Position numbers and translations under genes: made by a program
Assembly: GCA_021802555.1 (NCBI GenBank)
Contig: JAJZRU010000001.1
Coordinates: 124,001-188,000, forward strand
DNA from: Pseudomonadota bacterium
GTDB taxonomy: Bacteria > Pseudomonadota > Gammaproteobacteria > Burkholderiales > Thiobacillaceae
Direction of reading: 5' to 3'
DNA: 64,000 nucleotides
The notes under the pieces: generated by a model
What the model saw: only the letters and a program-made list of their open reading frames with translations
Databases searched by the model: none
Told to the model about the DNA's origin: nothing
Part shown: in pieces, positions 7,027 through 24,213 of the stretch
Numbering within the stretch: the stretch's first letter is position 1
Layout of the letters: each line of letters begins with the position of its first letter

Positions 7027-7062
7027 GTTGGCGGTGGGATGCCCGGTATTTTTGGCGTTTCC

Positions 7063-7078
7063 AGCAGAATTTATGCCA
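7063..7078 (-). promoter_or_regulatory. sigma-54 (-24/-12) promoter for the sugar transferase-prsKRT operon
   Basis: On the minus strand the site reads TGGCATAAATTCTGCT. It has GG and GC separated by exactly 10 bases, as required for sigma-54. The predicted transcription start is near 7053, about 27 bases upstream of the GTG start. A sigma-54 promoter here means PrsR could regulate its own operon. No PEP-CTERM box like those near 23100 and 24285 was found at the equivalent distance. Confidence 0.65.
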
Positions 7079-7131
7079 GACCCCGGCGCCGCCCTATTCC
7101 ACTATCGGCAAATTGACAAAGCGAACGTAAT

Positions 7132-7737
7132 TCAGGAGACGGCGCCGGGGGCCGGTTCCCCCCCGGCCGCCAGCAGCTGCGCCAGCTGCGCGCGGCGAAC
7201 ACGGCTGGGCTGGCCGTTGGGCAGAGTGCGGCGCAGTTGACGCAATTCCGACAGCGGATAAAGCACGAGATCGACCACGGCGCGCGGGTCGCTGACCCGG
7301 TAGCGCGGAAAGACCGCCGCACCCAGGCGGTTTTCGCCGCGCACGACCGGCTGCCTCAGCCCCAGCAGAAAGAATTCCAGCTCCTTGGAATTGTCGGCGA
7401 AGAGCTGCAGGTTGATGTCGGAATGGCGGCCGGCCGTGCCTTGCAGCACCGAGCCCGTGAGATGGGGGTCGAATTCCGCCAGCCGGGCCATGTATTCCAG
7501 GGCCACCTCGCGCAGCAGGGCGAGGTGGCCGCTTTGCTCCTCGGCCTGGTAAAGCGCCTGATAGCTGCGCAGGGCGGTTTCGATTTCCTGGTTGTCGGGC
7601 AGCGCGCGGCTGTCGGGCGCGCCCAGCGCGCGCGCCGCCTTGCGCTTGGCGGCGCCGTAATCGAGGCTGCCATCCAGGGCGATGAGGCGCGCCGCCTCGT
7701 GGGCGATCAGGCGGCGCATGTCGCCGCGGTGCTTCAT
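7132..7737 (-). CDS. nucleotidyltransferase-like conserved protein
   Basis: The 201-residue protein begins MKHRGDMRRLIAHEAARLI. A first helical part is followed by a minimal nucleotidyltransferase-like signature (GTAGRHSDINLQLFADN, with a D..L acidic strand) and a second acidic strand (RAVVDLVLYPLSELR). The family is widespread in Betaproteobacteria as an uncharacterised nucleotidyltransferase-domain protein. Its start overlaps the mrcA stop in an ATGA, so it is the promoter-distal gene of the mrcA transcript. The substrate is not known. Confidence 0.75.
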   Translation of the reverse strand: MKHRGDMRRLIAHEAARLIALDGSLDYGAAKRKAARALGAPDSRALPDNQEIETALRSYQALYQAEEQSGHLALLREVALEYMARLAEFDPHLTGSVLQGTAGRHSDINLQLFADNSKELEFFLLGLRQPVVRGENRLGAAVFPRYRVSDPRAVVDLVLYPLSELRQLRRTLPNGQPSRVRRAQLAQLLAAGGEPAPGAVS

Positions 7738-10088: not shown

Positions 10089-10116
10089 GCCTGATGACTC
10101 TCTAAAGTTTCGCAGG

Positions 10117-10122
10117 ATTATA
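10117..10122 (-). promoter_or_regulatory. mrcA: candidate -10 box of mrcA
   Basis: A perfect TATAAT lies on the minus strand 28 bases upstream of the chosen mrcA start. The -35 region is poor. Transcription would begin near 10110, giving a leader of about 22 bases with an AGAGAG-like ribosome-binding site. Confidence 0.45.
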
Positions 10123-10254
10123 GGCGTTATGAGTGTCGGAAATCGAACGGCGCCGACGAAATGCCCGACCGGGCAGGGCGGCGCAAGTACCGCAACCCGC
10201 TTGTCGGCGTCCTTTGGGGAGGGCCGACGATAGGCATGACATGCGAGGTGACCC

Positions 10255-11343
10255 TTGCGCTTCGAACTCAATCTGGATGTCTTCACCACCAAGACGCCGC
10301 CCATGCTGGGGCTGGACGTGAGCACCACGTCGGTCAAGCTGGTGGAACTGGCGGATGCCGGCAAAGGCACGTACCGCCTGGAGCGCTATGCCGTCGTACC
10401 CTTGCCCAAGGATGCCGTCGCCGACGGCAACATCGCCAATATGGATCAGGTGGTTGAAGCGGTGAAAGCCGCGTGGCGCGACCTGGGTTCGCGCGTGCGC
10501 CACGTGGTCATGGCGCTGCCCGCCTCCGCGGTGATCACCAAAAAGATCATGACGCCGGCCGGATTGGGAGAGATCGAGCTGGAAAACCAGGTGGAGGCGG
10601 AGGCCAACCAAGCCATTCCCTTCTCGCTGGACGAAGTCAACCTCGATTTCCAGGTGCTGGGGCCGGTGCCCAACAGCCCCAACGACGTCCAGGTGCTGCT
10701 GGTGGCGGCGCGCAAGGAAAAGGTCGAGGATCGCGTCGCCGTGGCGGAAGGGGCGGGGCTCAGGCCGCTGGTGATGGACGTCGAATCCTATGCCACGGTC
10801 ACGGCCTACCAACTCATCGCCAATCTGCTGCCCAACCGCGGCGCCGGGCAGACCGTGGCCATCCTGGACATCGGCGCCAACAATATGCACATCAATGTGC
10901 TGTACGACAATGAACCGGTATACCTGCGCGAGCACGGCTTCGGCGCCCAGCAGCTCAATCAGGAAATCGCGCGCCGCTACGGCATGACCAGCGAGGAGGC
11001 GGACCAGGCCAAGCGCCGCGGCAGTCTGCCCGACAGCTATGAGACCGAGGTGTTGCAGCCTTATGCGGAAACGCTGGCCATGGAGATCGCCCGCGCGCTC
11101 CAACTGTTCACGACTTCTACCCAGTTCCATAAGGTGGACCAGATCCTGCTGGCCGGCGGCGGTGCGGCCATCCCCGCCCTCGACGAAGTCGTGGCCAACC
11201 GCACCGGGGTTCCCACCATCATCGTCAACCCGTTTTCCAACATGGCCCTGGGCGGCAAGGTGAAGCCCCAGGAGCTGACTCGCGACGCGCCGGCTCTGTT
11301 CGTGGCCTGCGGCCTTGCCATGCGGAGGTTTGACCCCCAATGA
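10255..11343 (+). CDS. pilM: type IV pilus assembly ATPase-fold protein PilM
   Basis: The protein has 362 residues and an actin/FtsA-like fold. It has the first phosphate loop GLDVSTTSVKLVEL and the later motifs AILDIGANNMHINVL and LLAGGGAAIPALDE. PilM is the cytoplasmic partner that binds the N-terminus of PilN in the pilus alignment complex. The start is taken as TTG 10255, which has GAGGTG just upstream and supplies the short N-terminal extension seen in other PilM proteins. ATG 10303, beginning directly at MLGLDVS, is the alternative. The stop overlaps pilN in ATGA. Confidence 0.93.
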   Translation: MRFELNLDVFTTKTPPMLGLDVSTTSVKLVELADAGKGTYRLERYAVVPLPKDAVADGNIANMDQVVEAVKAAWRDLGSRVRHVVMALPASAVITKKIMTPAGLGEIELENQVEAEANQAIPFSLDEVNLDFQVLGPVPNSPNDVQVLLVAARKEKVEDRVAVAEGAGLRPLVMDVESYATVTAYQLIANLLPNRGAGQTVAILDIGANNMHINVLYDNEPVYLREHGFGAQQLNQEIARRYGMTSEEADQAKRRGSLPDSYETEVLQPYAETLAMEIARALQLFTTSTQFHKVDQILLAGGGAAIPALDEVVANRTGVPTIIVNPFSNMALGGKVKPQELTRDAPALFVACGLAMRRFDPQ

Positions 11344-11915
11344 CGATACGCATCAACCTGCTCCCGCACAGGGAGATCAAGCGTGCCGCGCGGCGCCGCC
11401 AGCTCAACGTGCTGCTGGCCGCCGCGGCCGTCGCCGGGGTGGCTACGGTGGTGCTGGGCCACACCATCATCGCTGCGCGCCTCGATAATCAACAGGCGCG
11501 CAATCAATACCTCACCGAGCAGATCGCCAAGCTGGACAGCCAGATCGGGCAGATCAGCAAGATCAAGGAAGAGACGCATGCCCTGCTGGAGCGCAAGCGC
11601 GTGGTCGAAACCCTGCAGGACAACCGCACCGAGGTGGTGCACTTGTTCGACCAGCTCATCAAGCTGCTGCCCGAAGGCATGTATCTGTCTTCCATCAAGG
11701 AAACCGGCAACGTCCTGACCATCAACGGCTACGCCCAGTCGAGCGCGCGGGTGTCCACGCTCATGCGCAGCCTGGAGGGGTCGCAGTGGTTCAAGAAGCC
11801 CAGCCTGGTGGAAATCAAGGCAGCCACGGTGAACAACCTGAGGGCCAATGAGTTCACCCTCAACGTGCAGCTTACCCACATGGCTGATACGGATGGCAAG
11901 AAGGCGAAATCATGA
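11340..11915 (+). CDS. pilN: type IV pilus inner-membrane protein PilN
   Basis: The protein has 191 residues. The cytoplasmic N-terminus begins MTIRINLLPHRE; the INLLP motif is the conserved PilM-binding sequence. One membrane helix lies at about 20-42, then a coiled coil (about 45-95), then a ferredoxin-like periplasmic domain. It forms a heterodimer with PilO and links PilM to the secretin complex. It overlaps pilM and pilO by 4 bases each. Confidence 0.94.
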   Translation: MTIRINLLPHREIKRAARRRQLNVLLAAAAVAGVATVVLGHTIIAARLDNQQARNQYLTEQIAKLDSQIGQISKIKEETHALLERKRVVETLQDNRTEVVHLFDQLIKLLPEGMYLSSIKETGNVLTINGYAQSSARVSTLMRSLEGSQWFKKPSLVEIKAATVNNLRANEFTLNVQLTHMADTDGKKAKS

Positions 11916-12529
11916 ACCTCAACGACATCAACAATCTGGACCTGAAGACCGTCGCGGACTGGCCCATGCCGGCCAAGTTCGGTCTGTTGGGCGTGCTGTT
12001 CGTCGTGATCGTGCTGGCCGGATGGTGGTTCGACTGGCGCGGCAATCTGGCGACCCTGGGCAGCGAGCAGGCCAAGGAGCAGGATCTGCGCCAGACCTTT
12101 CTGGCCAAGAAGGCCCAGGCCGTGAATCTCGACGCCTATACGAAGCAGCTGGCGGATATCAAGCAGTCCTTCGGCGCGCTGCTCAAGCAGCTGCCCAATC
12201 GCCAGGAAATGGACGCCCTCATCACCGACATCAACCAGGCCGGCCTGGGCCGCGGCCTGCAGTTCGATCTGTTCAAGCCGGGCACCGAGCAGGACACCGA
12301 ATTCTATGCCGTGCTGCCCATACAGGTCCGCGTCACCGGTGGCTATCACGATCTCGCAGCCTTCGCCAGCGACGTCGCCAAGCTGCCGCGCATCGTCACC
12401 CTGGATAACATATCCATCACGCCCAACAAGGACGGCAGCCTGACCATGGATGCCACGGCCCAGACCTATCGCTATCTGGACGAAAATACCTCGGCCTCCG
12501 GCAAGAAAGCCAAAGGGAAAAAATCATGA
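11912..12529 (+). CDS. pilO: type IV pilus inner-membrane protein PilO
   Basis: The 205-residue protein has a short cytoplasmic N-terminus, one membrane helix (about 27-47), a coiled-coil stretch and a periplasmic ferredoxin-like domain (FYAVLPIQVRVTGGYHDLA). It pairs with PilN and contacts PilP in the periplasm. It overlaps its neighbours by 4 bases on each side, consistent with fixed subunit ratios. The C-terminal Lys-rich tail is short. Confidence 0.93.
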   Translation: MNLNDINNLDLKTVADWPMPAKFGLLGVLFVVIVLAGWWFDWRGNLATLGSEQAKEQDLRQTFLAKKAQAVNLDAYTKQLADIKQSFGALLKQLPNRQEMDALITDINQAGLGRGLQFDLFKPGTEQDTEFYAVLPIQVRVTGGYHDLAAFASDVAKLPRIVTLDNISITPNKDGSLTMDATAQTYRYLDENTSASGKKAKGKKS

Positions 12530-13026
12530 AGCGACTCGTTTTCCTGCTTCCGGTGCTTCTGGCCGGCTGCGGCCACGGCGGCATGTCCGACCTCAAGCAG
12601 TTCGTGGCGGATTCCGGCAAGGGCCTGCAGGGGAAAGTCGAGCCGCTGCCCCAGGTCAAGCCCTACGAGCCGTTCACCTACAACGACTTCAACCTGCCCG
12701 ACCCGTTCAAGCCGCGCAAGCTCGCGCCGGCCGGCGGAGGCGGGCTGCAGCCCGATTTCAACCGGCCGAAGGAGCCGCTGGAGGCCTATTCCCTGGAAAC
12801 CCTCAAGATGGTCGGCACCCTCAAAAAGCATGGTGACATGGAGGCGCTCATCAAAACTCCCGACAACGCCGTCTACCACGTGCATGTCGGCAACTACATG
12901 GGGCAGGATTTCGGCCGCATCACGAGCATAGGCAACAACGAGGTTACCCTGCGGGAGACCGTGCAGGACAGCAGCGGCGACTGGGTGCACCGCACCAGCA
13001 CATTGAATTTGCAGGAAACCCCCTGA
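12526..13026 (+). CDS. pilP: type IV pilus assembly lipoprotein PilP
   Basis: The 166-residue lipoprotein has the signal MKRLVFLLPVLLAGC, with the lipobox Cys at residue 15. A flexible Pro-rich linker (about 35-85) precedes the beta-sandwich domain (SLETLKMVGTL; VHVGNYMGQDFGRI). It connects the PilNO inner-membrane complex to the secretin PilQ. It is separated from pilQ by 23 bases containing a GAGAGAACCGAGG ribosome-binding region. Confidence 0.94.
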   Translation: MKRLVFLLPVLLAGCGHGGMSDLKQFVADSGKGLQGKVEPLPQVKPYEPFTYNDFNLPDPFKPRKLAPAGGGGLQPDFNRPKEPLEAYSLETLKMVGTLKKHGDMEALIKTPDNAVYHVHVGNYMGQDFGRITSIGNNEVTLRETVQDSSGDWVHRTSTLNLQETP

Positions 13027-13049
13027 ATACCGAGAGAACCGAGGCAGAC

Positions 13050-15323
13050 ATGAAAAACACCGTTCACGCCGCTTGCAAGTTTTCCTGGCCCTGGCTCGTC
13101 AGCCTCGCGGCCCTGCTATTGTTCGGCGCCGCGCTGAAGGCGCGCGCCGCAGACTCTGCCCCCGCCGGGAATGCCGTGCTGTCGGTCGAGCCGGCCACGC
13201 TGCCGGGCGGGCGCCTGGTGGTGCGCATCGGCCTCAAGGAGCCGCTCAAGGCCAGCCCTTTCAGCTTTTCCGTGGGCAACCCGCCGCGCATCGCCATGGA
13301 TCTGCCAGACACCGCGAACGCCCTGGGCAAAAACACCGTCAGCGTCAATCAGGGCCCGTTGGGCAGCATCAACGTAGTGCAGGCGGGCAATCGCACGCGC
13401 CTGGTGTTCAACCTCAACCAGGCCGCCAAGTACGATACCCAACTGCAGGGCAAATACCTGCTGGTCGGCCTCGGCGCCACCGCGACGGAAACCGCCGGTG
13501 CGGGCAGCGAACACTTTGCCGAGCCCGTCGCCGCAGGCGCGCATCACGCCATCCGCAGCATAGATTTCCAGCGCGGCGCGGACGGTGGCGCGCGCATCGT
13601 CACCACTCTGTCCGACAGCCAGGCCGGCGTCAACATCCGCGAGGATTCCAAGGGCGTGGTGGTGGATTTCATCAACACCGAACTGCCCAAGAGCCTGCAG
13701 CGCAAGGCCGACGTGTCCAGCTTCGGCACCCCGGTGCAGTACGTCGAAAGCTACGCCCTGGGCGACAACACGCGCATGTTCATCCATCCCACCGGCAATT
13801 GGGATTATTCCGCCTACCAGATGGACAACCAGTTCGTGGTCGACGTGAAGCCCGTCAAGACCGGCCAGAACATGTCCGGCAAGCCCAAGTACACGGGCGA
13901 AAAACTGTCGCTCAACTTCCAGAATGTGGACGTGCGTTCGGTGCTGCAGGTGATCGCCGACTTCACCGGCCTCAACATCGTCGCCAGCGACTCTGTCACC
14001 GGCTCGCTCACCCTGCGCCTGAAGGACGTGCCCTGGGATCAGGCCCTGCACATCATCCTGGAAGCCAAGGGCCTGGGCATGCAGAAATCCGGCAATGTCA
14101 TCTGGGTGGCGCCCAAGGAGGAGATCCTGGCGCGCGAGAAGCAGGAACTGGCCGGCAAGGAGGCTGTGGAAGCCCTGGAGCCGCTGGTGACGGAATACAT
14201 CCCGCTCAACTACCTGCGCGCCGACGACGCCCAGAGCATCCTCTACGGCTATGCCGCAGGCGCCGCGCGCAACTCCGCCAACAATTCGGTGGACTGCTCG
14301 ACCCAGGCGCAGGGCATCACCGCGTCGACCACCACGAACACGATGCCGCAGCAAACCGCGGCGCAGCAGGGCGGCGGGACTTCAGGCAGCCAGAAGATAC
14401 TGTCCAAGCGCGGCCGCGCCACCTACGATCTCAAGACCAACACCCTGATCGTCACCGACACGCCGCAGAAGATCCAGCAGGTCCGCCAGCTGCTGGCCAA
14501 GCTGGACGTGCCGACGCGCCAGGTCATGATCGAGGCGCGCGTGGTGCTGGCCACTTCCAACTGGTCGCGTGAACTGGGCGCCCGCCTGGGTATTGGAGCC
14601 GGCGGCCAGCTTCCCGGCGCCAACAGGGTGGGCATAGGCGGCGATTTGGGCTCTTCCGCGACCAACGCCAATCTCGCGCCCGGATCCACGGCCTCGTTCG
14701 GTGCCCTCGGCAGCAACGTGAACCTGCCGGCGCCCGACCTGACGTCCTCCATCGGCTTCTCCCTGCTCAACACCGTGACCGGCAATCTGCTGAGCCTGGA
14801 GCTCTCGGCCATGGAGGCCAACGACGAGGGCAAGGTGATCTCCAGCCCGCGGGTGGTGACTTCCAACCAGCGTCCGGCAGTCATCATCCAGGGTACGCAG
14901 ATTCCCTATGTGACGGTGCAGGCTTCCGCGGGCACGGCGCCGGTCTACACGGTGGCCTTCAAGGACGTCAACCTCTGCCTGCTGGTGGATCCGCAGATAC
15001 TCAACAACAACAACGTGATCCTCAACGTCGAAATACAGAAGGATTCGGTGGGCCAGCTGGTCGCCCTGCCGGGCAGCGGCTCCGTGCCTTCCATCGACAC
15101 CCGCCGGGTGAAGACCCAGGTTCGGGTCGCCAACGGCGAGACGGCGGTGATCGGCGGCATCTACGAGCAGACCATCAGCAACAATATCGGCAAGGTGCCG
15201 CTGCTCGGCGACATGCCTTTCCTCGGCCATCTGTTCAAGAACACGGTGAAGCAGGATCAGAAGGTGGAGCTGCTGGTGTTTCTCACGCCGCGCATCCTGA
15301 GCAGCCAGGTAGCCTTGCATTAA
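13050..15323 (+). CDS. pilQ: type IV pilus outer-membrane secretin PilQ
   Basis: The 757-residue protein has a signal peptide ending near residue 34. Two AMIN peptidoglycan-binding domains follow (about 45-125 and 170-270). An STN/N0 domain (about 290-365), a NolW-type N1 domain (about 390-500) with a Gln/Thr/Gly-rich insertion, and the secretin channel domain (about 565-750; VISSPRVVTSNQRPA, VPLLGDMPFLGHLFK) complete it. It is the multimeric pore through which the pilus exits. The C-terminus LVFLTPRIL is typical. A strong terminator follows. Confidence 0.96.
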   Translation: MKNTVHAACKFSWPWLVSLAALLLFGAALKARAADSAPAGNAVLSVEPATLPGGRLVVRIGLKEPLKASPFSFSVGNPPRIAMDLPDTANALGKNTVSVNQGPLGSINVVQAGNRTRLVFNLNQAAKYDTQLQGKYLLVGLGATATETAGAGSEHFAEPVAAGAHHAIRSIDFQRGADGGARIVTTLSDSQAGVNIREDSKGVVVDFINTELPKSLQRKADVSSFGTPVQYVESYALGDNTRMFIHPTGNWDYSAYQMDNQFVVDVKPVKTGQNMSGKPKYTGEKLSLNFQNVDVRSVLQVIADFTGLNIVASDSVTGSLTLRLKDVPWDQALHIILEAKGLGMQKSGNVIWVAPKEEILAREKQELAGKEAVEALEPLVTEYIPLNYLRADDAQSILYGYAAGAARNSANNSVDCSTQAQGITASTTTNTMPQQTAAQQGGGTSGSQKILSKRGRATYDLKTNTLIVTDTPQKIQQVRQLLAKLDVPTRQVMIEARVVLATSNWSRELGARLGIGAGGQLPGANRVGIGGDLGSSATNANLAPGSTASFGALGSNVNLPAPDLTSSIGFSLLNTVTGNLLSLELSAMEANDEGKVISSPRVVTSNQRPAVIIQGTQIPYVTVQASAGTAPVYTVAFKDVNLCLLVDPQILNNNNVILNVEIQKDSVGQLVALPGSGSVPSIDTRRVKTQVRVANGETAVIGGIYEQTISNNIGKVPLLGDMPFLGHLFKNTVKQDQKVELLVFLTPRILSSQVALH

Positions 15324-15412: not shown

Positions 15413-15961
15413 ATGGCCAAGCGCGACAACATTTTCCTCGTCGGACTCATGGGGGCGGGCAAGACTACCGTCGGGCGCCAGCTTGCCAGGCAGTTGAATC
15501 TGGTGTTCCACGACGCCGATCAGGAGCTGGAAGAACGCACCGGCGTTCGCATCCCGGTGATTTTCGACATCGAAGGCGAGGCCGGCTTCCGCGCGCGGGA
15601 GGAGGCCGTCATCCACGAACTGTGCAGGCTCGAAGGCATCGTGCTGGCGACCGGCGGCGGTGCCGTGCTGTCGGCCGCCAATCGTGCCGCCTTGAAGAAC
15701 AACGGCGTGGTGGTCTATCTGCGCGGCAGCCCGGAGCAGCTCTACGAACGCACGCGCCACGACCGCAACCGCCCCCTGCTGCAAACGGCCGATCCGCTGG
15801 CCCGGCTGCGCGAGCTGTATGCCCAGCGCGATCTCTACTATCGCGAAGTCGCGGATGTGGTCGTCGACACCGGACGCCAGAGCGCGGTGCATCTCACGCG
15901 CGTGCTGCGCGAAAAGCTCGACGCCCTGGATTCCGCGGCGGCCGGCTCGGCGCAGGGCTGA
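15413..15961 (+). CDS. aroK: shikimate kinase
   Basis: The 182-residue enzyme phosphorylates shikimate at the 3-hydroxyl in aromatic amino acid synthesis. The P-loop GLMGAGKTT is at 11-19. The shikimate-binding Asp and Arg lie in FHDADQELEERTG and FRAREEAVI, followed by the ATGGGAV loop and the lid Arg in RTRHDRNRPLL. In many relatives aroB follows aroK; here the next gene is on the opposite strand and no aroB is present. Confidence 0.96.
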   Translation: MAKRDNIFLVGLMGAGKTTVGRQLARQLNLVFHDADQELEERTGVRIPVIFDIEGEAGFRAREEAVIHELCRLEGIVLATGGGAVLSAANRAALKNNGVVVYLRGSPEQLYERTRHDRNRPLLQTADPLARLRELYAQRDLYYREVADVVVDTGRQSAVHLTRVLREKLDALDSAAAGSAQG

Positions 15962-15976
15962 AATATCGGCCCGGCC

Positions 15977-18900
15977 TCAGCTTTCGAAGCGTTGCGCCAG
16001 CCAGTCGCCGACGCCCTGCCACCACGATTGCGGCACGGGCGACGGCGCGGGGCTGCGCAAATCCACGCGCCGGCCGCTGCCGGGCAGCTCCACGATCACG
16101 CCGGGCAGGTCGGCCGCGAACTGCCAGCGCACGGTACGCCGCGGTCCGCGGATTTCCACGCCTGTTTCTCCGAGGGCGACGACCTGGGGAGCGGCGGCGT
16201 CGCCCTCGAGCAGGCGCGGCGTGAGCACGACCAGAAAGCGGTCGGCCCGGCGGGCGGCGCCGGGGGCGAGTTCCAGGCGGCCGATGCCGGGTTCGATGAG
16301 CGGATCGATGCGCGCCATCTGCGCATGGATTTTTCCGTCTTCGTTGTAGTCGGTGCCGTCCACCCAGAATTCCCGACCCGGCCCCCCCACCCAGTTCCAT
16401 TGTCCGTCCGCGGGCAGGATGAACTCGCCGAACAGACGCCCGCCCGACTGCTTGCGGCCCGGGTCGGGCGGCAGTTCCAGGCTGAAACTGCGCCCGGCGA
16501 TGTCGGGCGCCGCCTGAGTGTGCAGCAGCCAGCGTTTGGCAAAGCGGGCGCGCGTGGCGACGACCTGATCGTGGACGACCACGACATCGTTGGCGCGGTC
16601 GTAGGCGATGGTGCGCCACAAGCGCTCGACCCGGCGCGTGCGGGCGGAAAACTCGCCGGGGCCGGAGCGGGCGTTGGTGTAGGCCGGCGTGATGTCGGCC
16701 ACCGAGACCACCAGGTCGTCGCCGCTGTAATGGCGCAACAGGGTGCCCGTGTGGTAGGTCTCGCGCTCGGCCAGCCACTCGCCCAAATCTATGGGCGCCG
16801 AGACGCCCCAGCCCGACCCCACGCGGCGCTGGCCGCCGTCGTTGGCGATGCGGCGCGCCGTCTTGCCGGCCATGGGCGCCGTGTCGCCGGGATCGGTGAC
16901 GGTGACGACGTTGTGCGCGACGCTCTGGTACTGGTAGTTGAAGTGCTCTTCCGAGCCGTAATGGGGGCCGTAGAAGCCGCTGTCGATGGCGAGCGCCCCG
17001 CCTTTGTATAGCGTGAAGGCGCCTTGGTCCAGGTGGCTGTGCGACCAGTAGTTGTCGCCCGCCTTGAAGGTGAAGTAGGTCGCGTCCCGGCCCCAGTCGC
17101 TGCGGGCAATCAGCATGCCGAGGCCGTCCAGGTGCTTGTCCAGCGGCCGCGCGCCCAAAGCCTGGGGATTGAGCAGCGCGGGGTCGGTGAGCGGCCCCCA
17201 GGGCCAGGCGCTCGGCTCGGGCGGGCGCGGGCCGGGGCGCACCAGGGTGTAGGCCCCAGCATCGCGGTAGCGCACGGCGAGCGGCAGCACGTCGGATACC
17301 ATGCGCTTGAAGAACGCGCCGTCGCCCCAGCGCATGTCGGTGCCGTCCGGGCGGGTGCGATAGACGGCGAAATCCAGAAATCCGCGTATGCCCGGCTCAC
17401 GTGCAAACAGATCCTCTCCCGTCGCCGCAAGCCACATGGCAGGCACTTGATAGACCGCTTGCCCGATGCCTACGCCGACATATTCATTGCCCTCGTGCCA
17501 GCCGCCCTGTCTACCCATGATCTGGCGCCACACAGGCAGTACGCGGTTTTTCCACAAGTCGTAGGTAAAGCGCATGGTCATGTCGCCGCGTGCGCTGTCG
17601 CGATACAGCGCCAGGTTGGCGGCCACCAGCGCTTGCAGCGGACTGTTGTAGAGGAAGACGTTGTAAGGCGACAGGCGCTCCCTGCGGATGACGTTGACGA
17701 GAAAATCCAGACCCTCGGCGAGCTTGTCGCGCAGGGCGGCGCGCTGGGCCTCGCTCCATTGGTCGTGCAGCCAGTCATAGGCCAGGGTGATGGGTTTGGC
17801 CTGGTCATTGCCGCGATAGCTGTATTCGAGCGCCATGAGGCGCCGGAAAAGCAGGCCGAGGTCTACGCTGCCGGGAACGAGATAGGCCTGCGTGACTGCG
17901 GCATCCAGATGTCCCCGCCCGCCGCCCGCCAGGTGCGCCATGGTCTGCAGCCAGTCGCGGTTCTCGCGCCGCAGCAGATCGATGTCCGCGGCGCTGGGAT
18001 GGGGCAGGCGCGGGTGCGCGGCGCGGAAGCCGGGCAGGTCGGGTGCGGGCAGACTCTCGGGCTCGGGCAGCAGGTTGCGTCCGTGCTCGTCCGTCTCCAT
18101 CAGTTCCCGGCTGCCCTCGCGCCAGCCGGCCAGGGCGATGCTGCCGGCCACCGCGGCCAATGCCAGCAGCACCCAGCGGCGTGAAAACATGGGCGGCGGC
18201 ACCGGAGTCTGGGGAGGCGCTTGGGCCGCCGGCAAGGGGCGCTCGCGCACGGCCCAGCCCGCCCACCAGGCGACGAGCCCGACCAGCGGGTCGGTGATGT
18301 CGGGCACCCGTCCGGGAACGGATTGCTGATGCCATTCCAGGGCGAACCAGACACCGAACAGCATTCCGCCGCCGCCCAAGCTCGCCCAGGAACGCAGGCG
18401 CCAGCCGGTGATCATGCGCGCCAGCACGGCCAGCCCCAGTGCCGGCCATAGCGTGTTCAGCAGATCGTCGATGCCGGCCAGGCTGCCAACCTGCGCGGCG
18501 AAGGGTATCCAGTTGAAGTGATAAAAGCCGGGCAGCCTGCCCGGACGCAATTCATCCGCGACCCTGGAGAGAACGATGGCGGCGATGCCCAGCCAGGCCA
18601 TGCCGCGCAGGCTCTGCCACGTCAAGAGCGACAGGCAGGCGAGCGCCGTCAGGGCGGCGAGGAAAAATTCCAGCGACAGCGTCTGGCCCACGATCATGAT
18701 CTTGAGCAGGGTCACGCCCATGACGAAGGGCAGCAGCAGAGGCATCACCGGCTCGCGCGTGACGATGCGCGCCAGCACGCCCACGGCCAGGATGGCGCCG
18801 AAATCGGCAAGCGCCTTGGGGAGATTGAACAGGCTGGGGTGGCGCAGCGTGTTGGCCAACGGCCGCAGCCCGGCCTTGAGGGTGCTCACGTCCAGCGAGG

Positions 18901-19435
18901 GCGCGAAGGGCGCCAGTTCGGTCGCCGCCCACAGGACGAGCACCAGGAGGGCGAGATTGGGCAAGGTGCCCGGGGCGAAGCGCCGCGCGCGCCAATGCGC
19001 CAAATGCGCGCCGGCAAAGCTCTGGGGCGAGAGGCCCAGGGCCAGCAGGGCGCCGGCCGCCGTGCCCAGGGTGTTGTTGAAGACATCCTGCACCGAGGAG
19101 ACGCGGCTGGGCAGCGCTTCCTGCAGGAACTCCATGCTGAAGCTCAGGGCAAAGCCGGCGGCCAGCGCCAGGACGAACGCCGCAGCGCGGCCGGCGCGCC
19201 GCCAGATCAGGCTCAGGAGCAGGCCCAGCGGCAGGTAGGCCAGCAGGTTTACGAGGATGTCGGCGCGCGAGTCATGGGCCGGCCAGGGGCTCGTGATAGG
19301 ATTGCTCCACGAGGGGGGCGCATGCCAGTGGGTGAGAGGAAACAGGCTGCCGTAAACGATCAGCAGGACGTAAAAGAAACCCAGCCACTTCAGTCCGCTG
19401 GAAGCGCGGGGGACGGCAGGACGACGCATAGGCAT
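15977..19435 (-). CDS. VanZ-domain/heparinase II-III-like fusion protein
   Basis: One open frame of 1152 residues from ATG 19435 (or ATG 19429). Residues ~15-145 form a VanZ-like membrane domain (SRADILVNLLAYLPLG; SMEFLQEALPSRVSSVQDVF). More hydrophobic segments continue to about 415. A second segment (MFSRRWVLLALAAVAG, from residue 416) could anchor the remainder, which is a heparinase II/III-like polysaccharide lyase. Its conserved core is near 790-840 (NYWSHSHLDQGAFTLYKGG, then SVAHNVVTV). VanZ proteins and heparinase-like proteins both occur in XrtA/EPS clusters, so the likely role is processing of the exopolysaccharide; substrate unknown. The frame runs continuously across the junction and the internal ATG at 18190 lacks a ribosome-binding site, supporting a genuine fusion. 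Confidence 0.8.
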   Translation of the reverse strand: MPMRRPAVPRASSGLKWLGFFYVLLIVYGSLFPLTHWHAPPSWSNPITSPWPAHDSRADILVNLLAYLPLGLLLSLIWRRAGRAAAFVLALAAGFALSFSMEFLQEALPSRVSSVQDVFNNTLGTAAGALLALGLSPQSFAGAHLAHWRARRFAPGTLPNLALLVLVLWAATELAPFAPSLDVSTLKAGLRPLANTLRHPSLFNLPKALADFGAILAVGVLARIVTREPVMPLLLPFVMGVTLLKIMIVGQTLSLEFFLAALTALACLSLLTWQSLRGMAWLGIAAIVLSRVADELRPGRLPGFYHFNWIPFAAQVGSLAGIDDLLNTLWPALGLAVLARMITGWRLRSWASLGGGGMLFGVWFALEWHQQSVPGRVPDITDPLVGLVAWWAGWAVRERPLPAAQAPPQTPVPPPMFSRRWVLLALAAVAGSIALAGWREGSRELMETDEHGRNLLPEPESLPAPDLPGFRAAHPRLPHPSAADIDLLRRENRDWLQTMAHLAGGGRGHLDAAVTQAYLVPGSVDLGLLFRRLMALEYSYRGNDQAKPITLAYDWLHDQWSEAQRAALRDKLAEGLDFLVNVIRRERLSPYNVFLYNSPLQALVAANLALYRDSARGDMTMRFTYDLWKNRVLPVWRQIMGRQGGWHEGNEYVGVGIGQAVYQVPAMWLAATGEDLFAREPGIRGFLDFAVYRTRPDGTDMRWGDGAFFKRMVSDVLPLAVRYRDAGAYTLVRPGPRPPEPSAWPWGPLTDPALLNPQALGARPLDKHLDGLGMLIARSDWGRDATYFTFKAGDNYWSHSHLDQGAFTLYKGGALAIDSGFYGPHYGSEEHFNYQYQSVAHNVVTVTDPGDTAPMAGKTARRIANDGGQRRVGSGWGVSAPIDLGEWLAERETYHTGTLLRHYSGDDLVVSVADITPAYTNARSGPGEFSARTRRVERLWRTIAYDRANDVVVVHDQVVATRARFAKRWLLHTQAAPDIAGRSFSLELPPDPGRKQSGGRLFGEFILPADGQWNWVGGPGREFWVDGTDYNEDGKIHAQMARIDPLIEPGIGRLELAPGAARRADRFLVVLTPRLLEGDAAAPQVVALGETGVEIRGPRRTVRWQFAADLPGVIVELPGSGRRVDLRSPAPSPVPQSWWQGVGDWLAQRFES

Positions 19436-19466
19436 GGGCACAAGTGTATCCCGCAAGCTCTGCAGC

Positions 19467-20420
19467 ATGAACCATATCGACGTTTTCAACGGTGACGCCG
19501 ACGGACTGTGCGCCTTGCACCAGCTGCGCCTGGCGCAGCCGGCCGCGAGCGAACTCATTACCGGCCCCAAGCGCGAGATCGCCTTGGTGCGCCGCGTGCG
19601 CGCCGCGGCCGGCGACTGCGTCACTGTGCTGGACGTGGCGCTGGAGAAAAATGTCGCGGCGGTGCTGGCATTGCTCGATGCCGGGGTGCGCGTGCGCTAC
19701 TTCGACCACCACCGCAGCGGCGAGCTGCCGCGCCATGAGGCCTTCGAGGCGCACATCGACACGCGCCCCGAGATCTGCACCGGCCTGCTGGTGAACGACT
19801 ATCTGCAAGGGCGCCATTTGCCCTGGGCGGTGACGGCGGCGTTCGGCGACAATCTCGCAGACTCGGCGCGCCGCGCCGCGCTGCCCCTGGGCCTGCCGGA
19901 ACACCGGCTGCAACAACTGCGCGAACTGGGCGAGGCGCTCAATTACAACGGCTATGGCGAGAGCCTGGAGGATTTGCATTTCGCCCCAGACGAGTTGTAT
20001 CGGCGCATGCAGCCGTTTGCCGACCCTTACGCTTTCATGGCTGAAGACGACGCCTTCGCCATTCTGCGCAGCGGCTATGCCGAGGACATGGCTTTGGCGC
20101 GCACCATGCAGCCCGCAGAAGCGCGCCCCATGGGGCGTATCTATATCCTGCCGGCGCAAAAATGGGCGCGCCGCATCAGCGGCGTCTTCGCTAATCTGCT
20201 GGCCAACGAGGCGCCGCAGCAGGCCCATGCCGTGCTTACCGTGCGCGCAGGGGGCTATGTCGTGAGCGTGCGCGCGCCGCTGGCCAATCGCAGGGGCGCC
20301 GACGAATTGTGCGCGCGCTTTCCCACCGGCGGCGGCCGGCAAGGCGCGGCAGGCATCAACCATCTCGCCGAAGGCGATCTTGTCTCCTTCGCGGCGGCTT
20401 TCTTCGCCACCTTTTCCTGA
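19467..20420 (+). CDS. DHH family phosphoesterase
   Basis: The 317-residue protein has the DHH superfamily motifs NGDADGLCALHQL (metal-binding Asp residues), LDVALEKN, and FDHHRSGE. A C-terminal DHHA1-like motif reads FPTGGGRQGAAGINHL. Members hydrolyse phosphodiester bonds in short oligonucleotides or cyclic dinucleotides; which substrate applies here cannot be told. ATG 19467 is chosen because it begins at the conserved strand; an upstream ATG at 19434 would overlap the divergent VanZ-heparinase start. Only 31 bases separate the two divergent genes. The stop is 10 bases before the APS kinase gene, suggesting co-transcription. Confidence 0.82.
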   Translation: MNHIDVFNGDADGLCALHQLRLAQPAASELITGPKREIALVRRVRAAAGDCVTVLDVALEKNVAAVLALLDAGVRVRYFDHHRSGELPRHEAFEAHIDTRPEICTGLLVNDYLQGRHLPWAVTAAFGDNLADSARRAALPLGLPEHRLQQLRELGEALNYNGYGESLEDLHFAPDELYRRMQPFADPYAFMAEDDAFAILRSGYAEDMALARTMQPAEARPMGRIYILPAQKWARRISGVFANLLANEAPQQAHAVLTVRAGGYVVSVRAPLANRRGADELCARFPTGGGRQGAAGINHLAEGDLVSFAAAFFATFS

Positions 20421-20430
20421 GGAGCGCATC

Positions 20431-22068
20431 GTGCATGCCCCGCTTGCGCCCTACGGCGGTACGCTCAAACCTCTGCTCGTGGACGGCGAGGCTGCCGTCG
20501 GCCTGCGCCGCGTGGCGCTGGGGCTGCCTTCCATCGAGCTCGACTGGCGCCAGACGGCGGAGCTGGAAATGCTGCTCAACGGCGCTTACTCGCCGCTTTC
20601 CGGCTACATGGGGCAGGCCGAGGTGCGTTCCGTGCAGGAGAATTTCCGGCTCGCCGACGGCATGACCTTCTGGCCGGCGCCGGTGACTCTAAAGGTCAAG
20701 GAAAAAACCGCAGTGGGGCTGGCCGTCGGCGGGCGCGTGGCGCTGCGCGATGCCGAGGGCTACATGCTGGCCGTGCTGGAGCTGAGCGACCTGTGGGCGG
20801 CGCAGGATGGCTGGGTTCATCTGGGGGGGGCGCTGGCGGGCGTGGATCTGCCGCCGCGCCATGATTTCCGCGAGCTGCGCCTGAGCCCGGCGGAGCTGCG
20901 CGCCCTGTTTGCGCGCCGGGGCTGGCATCGAGTGGCGGCTTACCAGGCACGCCACGCCATGCACCGCGCGCAATACGAGTTCTGCCTGCGCACCGCCATC
21001 GCCGAGGAGGCCAATCTGCTGCTGCATCCCTGGGCCGGCGGCGACATGGTCGAATCGGGCGATTACTTCGGCCTGGTGCGCAGCTACCAGGCCGTGCTCA
21101 AGCGCTTTCCCGCGGCGACCACGCAGCTCGCCCTGCTGCCTGGCCTGCCGCCCCCGGCCTCGGCGCGCGACGTGCTGCTGCGTGCCATCGTGGCGCGCAA
21201 TCATGGCTGCTCGGTGCTCATCATCGGCGGGGAGTTCCAGCCCGAGGGCGGGTGCCGGCGCGGCGAGGACATCGTCCGGCCCCAGGAAGATTTCGATCCG
21301 GCGGCGCAGGCCCTGGCTTTGGGGGTCAAGCTCATCCCTTTCCCGCGCCTGGTCTACAGCGAGGACCGGGGCGAATTCCTTCCCGCCAGCGAAGCGCCGC
21401 CCGGCGCGCGCGTGCGGGCCCTGGCGGGAGGCGAATTCCTGCAGCGCCTGCGCCGGGGGCAGAAAATTCCAGACTGGTACAGCTTCCCGGAAGTCATCGC
21501 CGAATTGCAGAAAGCCTGCCCCCCGCCCGAGAAACAAGGTTTCACGGTGTTTTTCACCGGTCTGTCCGGGGCGGGCAAATCGACGCTGGCGCGGGCCCTC
21601 GCGGCGCGCCTCATGGAGATCGGCAGCCGGCCCGTGACCCTGCTGGACGGCGATATCGTGCGCCGCCACCTGTCCTCGGAGCTGGGTTTCTCACGCGAAC
21701 ACCGCGACATCAACGTGCGCCGCATCGGTTTCGTGGCGAGCGAGATCACCAAGAATCGCGGCGTGGCCATCTGCGCGCCCATCGCGCCTTACCGGCAGAC
21801 GCGCCGCGACGTGCGCGCCATGATCGAGGCCGTGGGCGGCTTCGTCGAGGTGCATGTGGCGACGCCCATCGAAACCTGCGAGGCGCGCGACCGCAAAGGG
21901 CTTTATGCCAAGGCGCGTGCGGGCCTCATCCCGGAGTTCACCGGCGTGTCCGACCCCTACGAAGCTCCGGAGCGGGCGGAGCTGGCCCTGGATACTTCCG
22001 CGCTGGCGGTGGACGAGGCGGTACAGCGCATCCTGCTCAAGCTGGAGCACGAAGGCTATTTGCGCTGA
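20431..22068 (+). CDS. cysC: two-domain APS kinase with inactive-looking ATP sulfurylase-like domain
   Basis: The 545-residue protein starts at GTG 20431 behind GAGGAG. Residues ~1-360 match ATP sulfurylase (NGAYSPLSGYMGQAE; RLADGMTFWPAPVTL). The catalytic motif QTRNPMHRAH is altered to QARHAMHRAQ at 172-181, and the GRDHAGPG motif is replaced by GGEFQPEGG from about 266. Residues ~370-545 are a normal APS kinase with P-loop GLSGAGKST at 377-385, then DGDIVRRHLSSELGF and APYRQTRRDVR. Thiobacillus denitrificans has a two-domain APS kinase lacking sulfurylase activity for this reason. It should therefore make PAPS from APS but not APS itself. No other cys gene is adjacent; the upstream DHH gene is likely co-transcribed. 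Confidence 0.88.
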   Translation: MHAPLAPYGGTLKPLLVDGEAAVGLRRVALGLPSIELDWRQTAELEMLLNGAYSPLSGYMGQAEVRSVQENFRLADGMTFWPAPVTLKVKEKTAVGLAVGGRVALRDAEGYMLAVLELSDLWAAQDGWVHLGGALAGVDLPPRHDFRELRLSPAELRALFARRGWHRVAAYQARHAMHRAQYEFCLRTAIAEEANLLLHPWAGGDMVESGDYFGLVRSYQAVLKRFPAATTQLALLPGLPPPASARDVLLRAIVARNHGCSVLIIGGEFQPEGGCRRGEDIVRPQEDFDPAAQALALGVKLIPFPRLVYSEDRGEFLPASEAPPGARVRALAGGEFLQRLRRGQKIPDWYSFPEVIAELQKACPPPEKQGFTVFFTGLSGAGKSTLARALAARLMEIGSRPVTLLDGDIVRRHLSSELGFSREHRDINVRRIGFVASEITKNRGVAICAPIAPYRQTRRDVRAMIEAVGGFVEVHVATPIETCEARDRKGLYAKARAGLIPEFTGVSDPYEAPERAELALDTSALAVDEAVQRILLKLEHEGYLR

Positions 22069-22136: not shown

Positions 22137-22964
22137 TCAGCGCAGGGATTTGCGCCGCGCCCAGCCCATGCCGGCCAGACCCAGGCCGATCAGGGCCAGG
22201 GAGGCCGGTTCGGGTACAGGGTTGGTCACTGAACCTTTCGGGACGGAGGCAAAGCGGAGGGTGCCCCCGGCGACCAGGTATTCGCCGAATCCGTCGCCGA
22301 AGAAAGTCACCTTGGAAAAGAATCCCGTGTCGTCGATGGCGCCGATGAAGTTGGTGTAGCTTTGCTGGGCGACAATACCCGGGTTGTCGCTGGAACTGAG
22401 CGCGTTGGCGGGCAGGGTGGCCGCGCCGCCGTCGAAGGCGATCCACAGGCCCGAACCTTGGGCCGGGACGCCGTAAGTGGTTTGAATGGTCGACGGGCGG
22501 GTGTGGTTGTAGCAGCAAGTTGCCCAGTCGCCGATCTCGAAGCCGAACGCGTTCACCGGGGAGGAAAAGGTGAAGGTCAGCCCGGAATTGAAGCCTGGGA
22601 TGGGGTCGCTTGTGTTGGCCTGGGGGCTGATATTCCAGACCGACCCCGAGAGGGAAACCCCACCGCTGGAATATCCGCCCGACGGGCTTGCGGCGCTGCC
22701 GTTCGGGCGGGTGACCGTGACAGTCGCGGGGTTGTTGTTCTTATCGATGTAGTTGTAGACGCTTTGGCCGCTCACCACTGGGGCGGTTACGACGGTTGCG
22801 CCGGCGTTCGTGATGACATTGTCGAACTTGGTCGATATTTGATTGAGCGACGTGTTGACGATGTAGGGGACGGCGTAAGCGCTGGTCGCGCAGGACAACG
22901 TCAAAACTGCGGCCGCGCTTATCGCAACGGCCAGGCGGGCGTGGTTCCGGACTTCGGTTTTCAT
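22137..22964 (-). CDS. PEP-CTERM sorting-domain exported protein 1
   Basis: The 275-residue protein has an N-terminal signal peptide (MKTEVRNHARLAVAIS..., cleavage after SAYA). The mature region is Ser/Thr/Asn/Gly-rich and beta-strand-like, with a Cys pair in ATCCYN. The C-terminal sorting signal is VPEPASLALIGLGLAG followed by MGWARRKS. It should be exported, cleaved at the PEP motif by exosortase XrtA (not in this window) and associated with the exopolysaccharide matrix. ATG 22964 is chosen because AAGGAGAG lies just upstream. A sigma-54 promoter and upstream box indicate PrsR control. The function of the mature domain is unknown. Confidence 0.92.
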   Translation of the reverse strand: MKTEVRNHARLAVAISAAAVLTLSCATSAYAVPYIVNTSLNQISTKFDNVITNAGATVVTAPVVSGQSVYNYIDKNNNPATVTVTRPNGSAASPSGGYSSGGVSLSGSVWNISPQANTSDPIPGFNSGLTFTFSSPVNAFGFEIGDWATCCYNHTRPSTIQTTYGVPAQGSGLWIAFDGGAATLPANALSSSDNPGIVAQQSYTNFIGAIDDTGFFSKVTFFGDGFGEYLVAGGTLRFASVPKGSVTNPVPEPASLALIGLGLAGMGWARRKSLR

Positions 22965-23015
22965 GGGGCTCTCCTTGTTCAAGACAAACGGAAGTTCTGT
23001 CGTCTCGTGATTTCA

Positions 23016-23298: not shown

Positions 23299-24102
23299 TC
23301 AGCGCAGGGATTTGCGCCGCGCCCAGCCCATGCCGGCCAGACCCAGGCCCAGTAGCGCCAGGGAGGCGGGTTCGGGCACCGTTCCCCCGCCGATCGGCTG
23401 CCCGCCGACGGTAATGCCGTCGAACGCCATGCCCGTCTGGTAGGCGGTATCGAGCCAGTTCGCGGCACCGAATTCCAGATAATAATTGCCGGTGGAGGCG
23501 ATGGTGTAGTCCGACTGCACCCAGCCGGAGTAGCCGCAGCCGGTGCTATAGCAGGCACCGGACGACCCCCCCAGCGGCGACCAAACCGGCCCCCCCGGGA
23601 CAATGGTCACGGTGGCAGGGGTGATCGTCGCGGCGATCGCCGGCATGCCGAACCCCGGGACGCTGTTGCCGCTCGGCGTCGTCCGCGCGGTGAACAGCAG
23701 CGCTACTTTGTTGAGGGAAGAATCCAGCAACCGCGCCCAACCATAGTCGGCGAAGCCGGCGCCGTCGGAAGTCACAAAGTTGAAATGGAATTGCAGGTCG
23801 TCGCCGGCGCTTGCCGAGAACAGCGATGAGCGCAGCGTCGATCCGTTTTTGTCGCTGCCGAGATGAAGCGTGTTGTTGGATACCCCGCCGGCGGTCGATA
23901 CCCAGCCGTATTGGCTGCCGCCCGAAGGCGCCAGGGTCACCACGCCGTTGGCGCCCAGGGTGCCGCAGTTCCCGGTGCAGGACCAGCCCGCTGGGATGCC
24001 CGAATCAAAAATGCCGGCCGCCATTGCCTGGTTGGAAAACGCGGGAACCGAAAGCAACGCAAACAGGCCCAGATAAATTGCCGCTGGTTTGGTAGTAGCC
24101 AT
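23299..24102 (-). CDS. PEP-CTERM sorting-domain exported protein 2
   Basis: The 267-residue protein starts at ATG 24102 behind GGAGG. The signal peptide is MATTKPAAIYLGLFALLSVP with cleavage near NQAMAA. The mature part is rich in Gly, Ser and Thr and carries cysteine pairs in GWSCTGNCG and GACYSTGCG. The sorting tail VPEPASLALLGLGLAG plus MGWARRKSLR is almost the same as in its neighbour. The likely fate is export, exosortase cleavage and EPS association. The mature regions of the two proteins are not alike, although their 3' ends and terminators are. Confidence 0.92.
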   Translation of the reverse strand: MATTKPAAIYLGLFALLSVPAFSNQAMAAGIFDSGIPAGWSCTGNCGTLGANGVVTLAPSGGSQYGWVSTAGGVSNNTLHLGSDKNGSTLRSSLFSASAGDDLQFHFNFVTSDGAGFADYGWARLLDSSLNKVALLFTARTTPSGNSVPGFGMPAIAATITPATVTIVPGGPVWSPLGGSSGACYSTGCGYSGWVQSDYTIASTGNYYLEFGAANWLDTAYQTGMAFDGITVGGQPIGGGTVPEPASLALLGLGLAGMGWARRKSLR

Positions 24103-24197
24103 TTTTGTACCTCCATAGCCTTGGGATGAAAAATCTGCGGGGGCAGGGAGGGTATATTCCGCAGCCCGCTCGCACCTCGTGTGTCTTTGGGAAAACA

Positions 24198-24213
24198 AGC
24201 AAGAGTCAGGCTA
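24198..24213 (-). promoter_or_regulatory. weak sigma-54-like promoter of PEP-CTERM gene 2
   Basis: The minus strand reads TAGCCTGACTCTTGCT. The -12 half (TTGCT) is perfect but the invariant GG of the -24 half is AG. Its position relative to the box at 24277-24293 matches the first PEP-CTERM gene to within one base, which is the main reason to believe it. The leader would be about 85 bases. Confidence 0.45.

Follow-up and report, generated by a model that had tools for sequence, protein, structure and literature searches.

A 64,000-nucleotide stretch of a Thiobacillaceae genome (GenBank assembly GCA_021802555.1, contig JAJZRU010000001.1, positions 124,001 to 188,000; hereafter the window) carries a gene whose product joins a VanZ-type membrane region to a heparinase II-like domain in one polypeptide. 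The gene occupies 15977-19435 on the minus strand, with an ATG start at 19435 and a stop codon ending at 15977, and spans 1152 codons. The protein combines known domains in a new way, the pairing is recurrent, and we infer its function. With moderate confidence, we favor the interpretation that it is a membrane-tethered periplasmic lyase that acts on the organism's own uronic-acid-containing exopolysaccharide (EPS) as part of EPS maturation.

One Reading Frame Encodes Both Halves

No internal stop codon interrupts the 1152 codons, while the same frame on the opposite (plus) strand over the same span contains three. The G+C content at third codon positions (0.86) is similar to that of neighboring genes, and the gene has a single match within the window genome. 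Pfam searches of the protein place VanZ (PF04892) at residues 21-133 (71.7 bits, cut-off 30.1, two stretches), DUF4962 at residues 549-730 (42.6 bits, cut-off 28.7), and Hepar_II_III_C at residues 770-975 (36.8 bits, cut-off 24). Overall, about 13 predicted membrane helices that include two VanZ units (residues 1-443) are followed by the heparinase II-like domain (residues ~460-1131).

The initial annotation had described one unbroken frame, with no strand named, holding a VanZ domain, additional membrane helices, and a lyase-like domain; this description stands, with both Pfam domains over cut-off. It had also placed the start of the lyase-like part at residue 416. The domain is indeed there, but the boundary is not: the Met416 codon at 18190 precedes a further helix (residues 419-443), and the lyase fold begins at residue ~460. 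Database searches for the VanZ-heparinase pair, as had been proposed, returned single-chain relatives in several genomes of the class, among them those of Methyloversatilis, Thauera, and Motilimonas. Because full-length single-chain relatives exist elsewhere, the fusion is real rather than a local frame accident. In locus L003 the gene appears as two frames adjoining unknown bases, which resembles an assembly flaw.

The C-Terminal Half Resembles Heparinase II

Residues 460-1131 (16043-18058, minus strand) are modeled, at modest confidence, with the alpha/alpha toroid and beta-sandwich fold of heparinase II, a member of polysaccharide lyase family 21 (PL21). The best structural match in VIA-align is heparinase II itself (3e7j; Z 25.9, root-mean-square deviation 6.0 over 566 aligned residues), followed by the alginate lyase Atu3025 (Z 24.4), heparinase III (Z 21.7), and human dermatan sulfate epimerase 1 (DS-epi1; Z 21.7). 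Foldseek with the lyase half gave an E value of 8.2e-21 to 2fut, and a phmmer search against the sequences of solved structures likewise ranked heparinase II first (2fuq, E 3.4e-37), followed by oligo-alginate lyase.

The catalytic Tyr257 and His406 of heparinase II have counterparts in Tyr652 (17480-17482, minus strand) and His799 (17039-17041, minus strand), in single-sequence and profile alignments alike. Less certainly, Asn597 (17645-17647, minus strand) aligns in one alignment with Arg314, the neutralizer of Atu3025. Residue roles for heparinase II and Atu3025 are those given in PMC12088678 (Table 4), and PMC7904915 lists the identical three heparinase II residues; chain numbers in 2fuq were taken as the published numbers minus 25, from the spacing of His202 and Glu205. 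Tyr652 and His799 are both retained in 21 of the 23 distinct fusion sequences that cover the domain, and Asn597 in 19 of the 23. Sequences of the L050/L051 type have Ala-His in place of Asn-Ser, which yields a histidine at position 598. The resemblance to lyases that use Asn, Tyr, and His (PL12, PL17, PL35, and PL39) was judged for Asn597 solely through Arg314 of Atu3025, in that one alignment.

There are also clear distinctions from each of the nearest known enzymes. Compared to heparinase II from Pedobacter heparinus (2fuq/2fut/3e7j), the fusion protein is only 21% identical in structural alignment, lacks a counterpart of His202, carries a membrane half, and in relatives resides among EPS synthesis genes. 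In addition, it scores 131.2 bits against the NCBIfam equivalog model for HepB (NF045571), whose cut-off is 600 bits. Atu3025 (PL15, 3a0o) shares the fold and matches in sequence in two main blocks, but has His311 and Arg314 where the fusion protein has Phe594 and Asn597, and a VanZ half is absent from the solved Atu3025 chain. Human DS-epi1 (6hzn) shares the fold, DUF4962, and a biosynthetic setting, but is 12% identical, has a His205 whose counterpart is apparently missing here, and has no VanZ domain. The catalytic set of DS-epi1 was compared only through heparinase II: the Tyr counterparts are present, and the His position is occupied by another residue.

The Membrane Half Carries a VanZ Unit and a Probable Degenerate Copy

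The first VanZ unit (19034-19399, minus strand; residues 13-134) comprises four predicted helices. Its residues D59, N63, E102, Q105, and D117 are each present in all 25 aligned sequences that have a VanZ half (23 distinct) and lie on the predicted periplasmic side; in two sequences that lack the VanZ half, alignment column 63 is His. The VanZ-1 signature, as given by Burroughs et al. 2025 (PMC12419801), consists of Asn in helix 2, ExxQ in helix 3, and DxDDxxxN in helix 4. Unit 1 has N63, E102xxQ105, and D117xxxN121, and lacks the first two Asp residues of the helix-4 motif; N121 is found in 15 of the 25 sequences (15 of 23 distinct). The fusion shares with VanZ-1 lipocone proteins the Asn in helix 2, ExxQ in helix 3, and an Asp in helix 4. 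That paper presents VanZ-1 action on a lipid head group as a prediction too. It also describes duplicated VanZ-1 proteins of betaproteobacteria with an inactive C-terminal copy, as well as associations with EPS genes.

A second, VanZ-like unit (18251-18481, minus strand; residues ~319-395) is probably degenerate. An hhalign comparison of residues 8-140 with residues 298-400 gave a probability of 96.9 and an E value of 2e-10 over 72 columns. A third unit at residues 200-300 of the window protein was considered and rejected, given that hhalign offers no support (E 0.11 and 0.07). Thauera-type sequences show an apparent third unit by eye, and the protein at L049 has three Pfam VanZ stretches.

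The last predicted helix (18107-18181, minus strand; residues 419-443) connects to the outside domain. Thirteen helices fit the membrane, with 12 Lys/Arg and 2 Asp/Glu residues in the inside loops and 8 Lys/Arg and 7 Asp/Glu residues in the outside loops. Based on this charge distribution, the C-terminal domain is predicted to lie outside the membrane; modeling of the topology had been proposed in the initial annotation. AlphaFold2 modeled the whole chain with a mean predicted local distance difference test score (pLDDT) of 64.8, and a separate model of residues 1-455 (mean pLDDT 68.7) has the same helices. Fold searches with the latter model yielded no Foldseek match under E 0.001 and a best VIA Z score of 5.3.

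The Fusion Recurs Among Relatives

A scan with one genome per species yielded 14 loci, 13 of which are strong matches and one distant (L015). Eight full-length relatives aligned with the window protein are 39-50% identical to it: L005 and L010 from Methyloversatilis, L004 from a betaproteobacterial metagenome-assembled genome, L006 from Thauera sp. 28, L007, L011, and L012 from two gammaproteobacterial and one proteobacterial metagenome-assembled genomes, and L008 from Motilimonas pumila, whose protein has an additional N-terminal stretch. All nine fusion proteins scanned with Pfam (L008, L010, L040, L043, L044, L046, L049, L051, and the second copy at L045) have both VanZ and Hepar_II_III_C over cut-off.

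Among 369 genomes sampled from the class, 19 matched at E 1e-30 or better. Judged by their open frames, 13 of the 19 encode the fusion: the window genome itself plus 12 more, among them G206, where a contig end truncates the gene and only the lyase half is visible. Three others have the VanZ half alone (G151, G286, and G358) and three a lyase-like half alone (G064, G197, and G323). Genomes G070 and G200 of this sample are those of L012 and L011 (identical contigs), and L011 and L012 repeat L051 and L050. In a sample of 398 genomes from the phylum, the fusion was found in the window genome only, the sole other match being the lyase-like protein of G323, and the plasmid records searched contained no match.

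Stand-alone tandem VanZ proteins that are 51-64% identical to the membrane half of the window protein occur at L052 (7847-9097), L053 (7446-8765), and L013 (1891-3093); a glycosyltransferase or flippase cluster is absent from both L052 and L053. At L045, two fusion genes lie in tandem (6273-10022 and 10052-13585), the second of which lacks the three catalytic residues. In a tree of VanZ halves, seven sequences with a different VanZ type group together (100/100), whereas they do not group in the lyase tree. The membrane half may therefore have been exchanged in some relatives, but with low support at many forks and high rates, we do not lean on this result. Because the window protein groups in the VanZ tree with the stand-alone proteins L013, L052, and L053 (98/97), fission or renewed fusion is possible as well.

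Most Relatives Lie near EPS Genes

Predicted proteins surrounding the gene were clustered for 26 loci and part of the window, and many of the resulting clusters are unannotated. A member of a glycosyltransferase cluster or a flippase cluster is present at 17 of 21 fusion loci, the window included. At 16 of these 17, at least one glycosyltransferase or flippase gene was confirmed by Pfam; the exception, L051, rests on its sister L050. The four loci that lack such a cluster are L003 and the window (one clade), L009 (at a contig edge), and L046. Additional families confirmed on representatives include ABC-2 permease, Wzt-like ATPase, polysaccharide deacetylase, asparagine-synthase-like amidotransferase, and sulfotransferases, along with the XrtA-system sugar transferase TIGR03013 and TIGR03098/TIGR03099. 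At L050 and L051 the gene order is exosortase, amidotransferase, fusion, such that one gene separates the fusion from the exosortase. Neighbor cluster 1 is heterogeneous, with methyltransferase domains among its members.

A sulfated polymer was first suggested by a fused ATP sulfurylase-APS kinase gene two genes away in the window (20380-22068, plus strand; Pfam APS_kinase 194.5 bits, ATP-sulfurylase 135.4 bits) and by nearby sulfotransferase genes. We considered sulfation as a mark of the fusion and rejected it. A sulfotransferase (PF13469) is encoded in 15 of 16 fusion genomes and in five of six further ones, but also in 35 of 40 XrtA genomes without the fusion (picked from 61). Sulfotransferase genes are widespread in XrtA genomes in general and do not mark the fusion.

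A trypsin-like protease cluster is represented at L040, L041, L042, L043, L044, L046, and L049 (Trypsin_2 in L040, which was scanned), and in five of these seven loci its gene directly adjoins the fusion in divergent orientation. L040, L041, L044, and L046 additionally carry an HprK-related kinase A cluster together with a small conserved gene that matches no NCBIfam model.

The Fusion Is Associated with XrtA

The XrtA exosortase (TIGR03109) scores over cut-off in 72 of the 369 class genomes. It is present in 11 of 13 fusion genomes, the exceptions being G052 and the window genome, versus 61 of 356 genomes without the fusion (Fisher p 4.5e-7, uncorrected for relatedness). Likewise, all 12 genomes that hold L002-L013 have an EpsH-type exosortase match, over cut-off in 11; this set includes G070 and G200 of the class sample, and L013 is a VanZ half only. 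XrtA lies 26-50 kb from the fusion on the same contig in G081, G309, G338, and G242, and elsewhere on another contig.

We do not count the window genome as an exosortase-less counterexample. L059, a 10.5-kb stretch of the close relative G369, holds XrtA (327 bits). Up to position 4916 this stretch aligns with one end of contig C45, and from position 8437 onward with one end of contig C6; because its exosortase domain (7141-7851) falls between these matches, the missing exosortase is best read as an assembly gap.

The initial annotation had proposed checking whether the hits are restricted to XrtA genomes; they mostly are, but not strictly. Its statement that heparinase-like genes occur separately in XrtA/EPS loci is borne out by L055, where a stand-alone gene lies beside exosortase-A-associated genes (TIGR03098, TIGR03099, and TIGR03100); L056 adjoins members of the same clusters. 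The proteins encoded at L055 and L056 resemble the fusion in this placement, but they are 816-830 amino acids long, have no VanZ half, are 27% identical to the lyase half, and differ in part in the active-site stretches. As for the assignment of the fusion to the PEP-CTERM/EPS system, ties to EPS genes and XrtA exist in most relatives, and a role in processing EPS is suggested by this context.

Exosortases whose XrtA match scores below cut-off lie within ~2 kb of a heparinase II/III-like gene in G036 (C120), G159 (C15), G342 (C36), G368 (C5), and G239 (C13). Because of these cases, the pairing of exosortases with heparinase II/III-like genes appears to be wider than XrtA.

Proposed Function and Alternatives

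We propose a periplasmic location for the C-terminal domain, where it would cut uronic-acid-containing EPS through beta-elimination while the polymer exits the membrane. Cleavage would trim EPS chain length or free the periplasm of trapped polymer, a role like the one proposed for AlgL in alginate export. More speculatively, VanZ unit 1 might act on the undecaprenyl-linked chain or its carrier, which would couple carrier release and chain cutting within one molecule. Action of VanZ-1 on a lipid-linked carrier has been proposed by Burroughs et al. 2025 (PMC12419801). A uronic acid in the target EPS is plausible, because the EPS of Thauera aminoaromatica MZ1T holds rhamnose, galacturonic acid, N-acetylglucosamine, and N-acetylfucosamine (PMC4784049), and S2, a different strain of this species, encodes the lyase half at the edge of a contig (L009). 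A bolder version, which we regard as unlikely, is that the protein is a single-chain EPS terminator, in which VanZ frees the chain from undecaprenyl diphosphate and the heparinase fold cuts or epimerizes a uronic-acid, possibly sulfated, polymer. If true, one molecule would set both carrier recycling and chain length, and would in its logic be a bacterial counterpart of the animal enzymes that modify glycosaminoglycans.

Several findings weigh against a lyase acting on EPS. The window gene is not adjacent to EPS synthesis genes. The sulfation link is unspecific to fusion genomes, and in G052, which carries the fusion, a TIGR03109 profile search gave no match to an exosortase. Within the active site, the second base of heparinase II, His202, has no His counterpart, there being none in residues 588-601. 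The model falls below a pLDDT of 50 near Tyr652 and His799 (residues 643-655 and 795-802). At L049 and in the second L045 copy, Asn, Tyr, and His are all replaced, and because of these losses it seems that the domain can persist without catalysis in some relatives. Finally, outside the window's clade, the VanZ halves of fusion proteins are only 19-40% identical to that of the window protein, compared to 48-58% for the lyase halves, so the membrane half appears to be under weaker or changing constraint.

One alternative is that the C-terminal domain functions as a uronosyl C5-epimerase on EPS, akin to the biosynthetic enzyme DS-epi1 of the same fold. DS-epi1 is among the best fold matches (6hzn, root-mean-square deviation 6.0 over 549 aligned residues), and DUF4962, which the protein contains, is described as confined to DS epimerases of mammals and lyases of Gram-negative bacteria (PMC8006597). 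The setting is biosynthetic, often with sulfotransferases, and in the window the sulfurylase-kinase gene lies second on the divergent side. Furthermore, Y826, which aligns with published position 436 of heparinase II, is Tyr in 24 of the 27 sequences that cover it. However, DS-epi1 uses His205, Tyr261, and Tyr473 (PMC8006597), residues 588-601 of the window protein hold no His, and the stretch that aligns with His202 of heparinase II has one only in the L050/L051 type (H598). Moreover, heparinase II and alginate lyase are the stronger fold matches, and sulfotransferases are no commoner than in XrtA genomes without the fusion. On this evidence we find an epimerase improbable.

We also doubt that the heparinase-like half is mainly a noncatalytic scaffold that binds EPS and holds the emerging chain at the membrane. 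The L049 protein and the second L045 copy would fit this role, as they keep the conserved H801, D818, and H841 after loss of Asn597, Tyr652, and His799, and in G242 the form without the triad is the only match. In most sequences the evidence points the other way, given the retention of Tyr and His tallied above, which includes the window protein.

A scavenging role, in which the enzyme would break down foreign polysaccharides as food and the VanZ helices would be a mere anchor, is very unlikely. The nearest named sequence relatives of the protein, heparinase II and oligo-alginate lyase, are indeed catabolic enzymes, but the annotated neighbors are mostly biosynthetic (glycosyltransferases, flippase, exporter, and deacetylases), although a catabolic gene might be present among the many unannotated clusters.

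That two separate proteins arise, whether from an error in the frame or from translation starting again at Met416, is barely credible and largely refuted already: the hydrophobic helix after Met416 does resemble a signal or anchor, and stand-alone VanZ proteins exist (L013, L052, and L053), but single-chain relatives span several genera, Met416 is Val in the closest relative (L003) and other residues or gaps in the alignment of eight relatives, and no ribosome-binding site was seen by eye upstream of Met416.

The Window Locus

The initial annotation held that the fusion replaces the aroB gene expected after aroK. This is not the case. The shikimate kinase gene aroK (15413-15961, plus strand; NCBIfam PRK05057, 196.4 bits, cut-off 195) converges on the fusion gene, 15 bases away, and aroB (406 bits) lies with dgt near the end of contig C46, outside the window, probably separated by rearrangement. 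Here the ancestor is taken to have had aroK and aroB side by side. Beside aroB on C46, facing away, is an ABC-2 permease gene, followed by genes for an ATPase, a methyltransferase-like protein, and glycosyltransferases, with an amidotransferase and a sulfotransferase-like gene further along. Genome G310 (L042) has this series immediately after the fusion and in the same order, with identities to C46 of 75% (permease), 69% (ATPase), 51% (methyltransferase-like), and 40% (glycosyltransferase). Because aroB on C46 adjoins the very exporter genes that adjoin the fusion in G310, this arrangement suggests an inversion with one breakpoint separating aroK from aroB and the other separating the fusion from the permease (the contigs are unjoined). 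If true, the inversion would explain both the lone fusion gene of the window and its "missing" aroB.

On the other side, the divergent neighbor (19434-20420, plus strand) is kept beside the fusion in L003. Its product begins with VFNGDADG, which looks DHH-phosphoesterase-like, and has no Pfam match at E 0.001. Beyond the sulfurylase-kinase gene lie genes for two proteins with PEP-CTERM tails (PF07589), at 22137-22982 (minus strand; 34.7 bits, residues 255-277) and 23299-24198 (minus strand; 33.7 bits), as expected for an exosortase genome. A Kdo hydroxylase gene (PF11004, 380.5 bits) is located at 36982-37863 on the minus strand.

Implications

The initial annotation had called the fusion a possibly undescribed component. 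Literature searches pairing VanZ with exosortase, PEP-CTERM with heparinase, and VanZ with heparinase and exosortase found no open-access paper, with most subscription papers outside their scope. Open-access papers that mention both VanZ and heparinase are unrelated, as judged by their titles, and a broader search found none on the combination. The claim is consistent with these results, which are weak evidence of novelty. In the main text of PMC12419801, the terms "lyase," "heparin," and "exosortase" are absent, and its supplements may list the fusion.

The recurrent pairing makes the prediction of VanZ activity (PMC12419801) testable, and it bears on the termination and release of XrtA-linked EPS. 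Should the lyase half act on EPS, its VanZ partner is likely to encounter that same chain or the carrier. The variants that lack the catalytic triad offer a natural control for distinguishing binding from cutting. Because some hosts, such as Thauera, form activated-sludge flocs, control of EPS chain length has practical weight as well.

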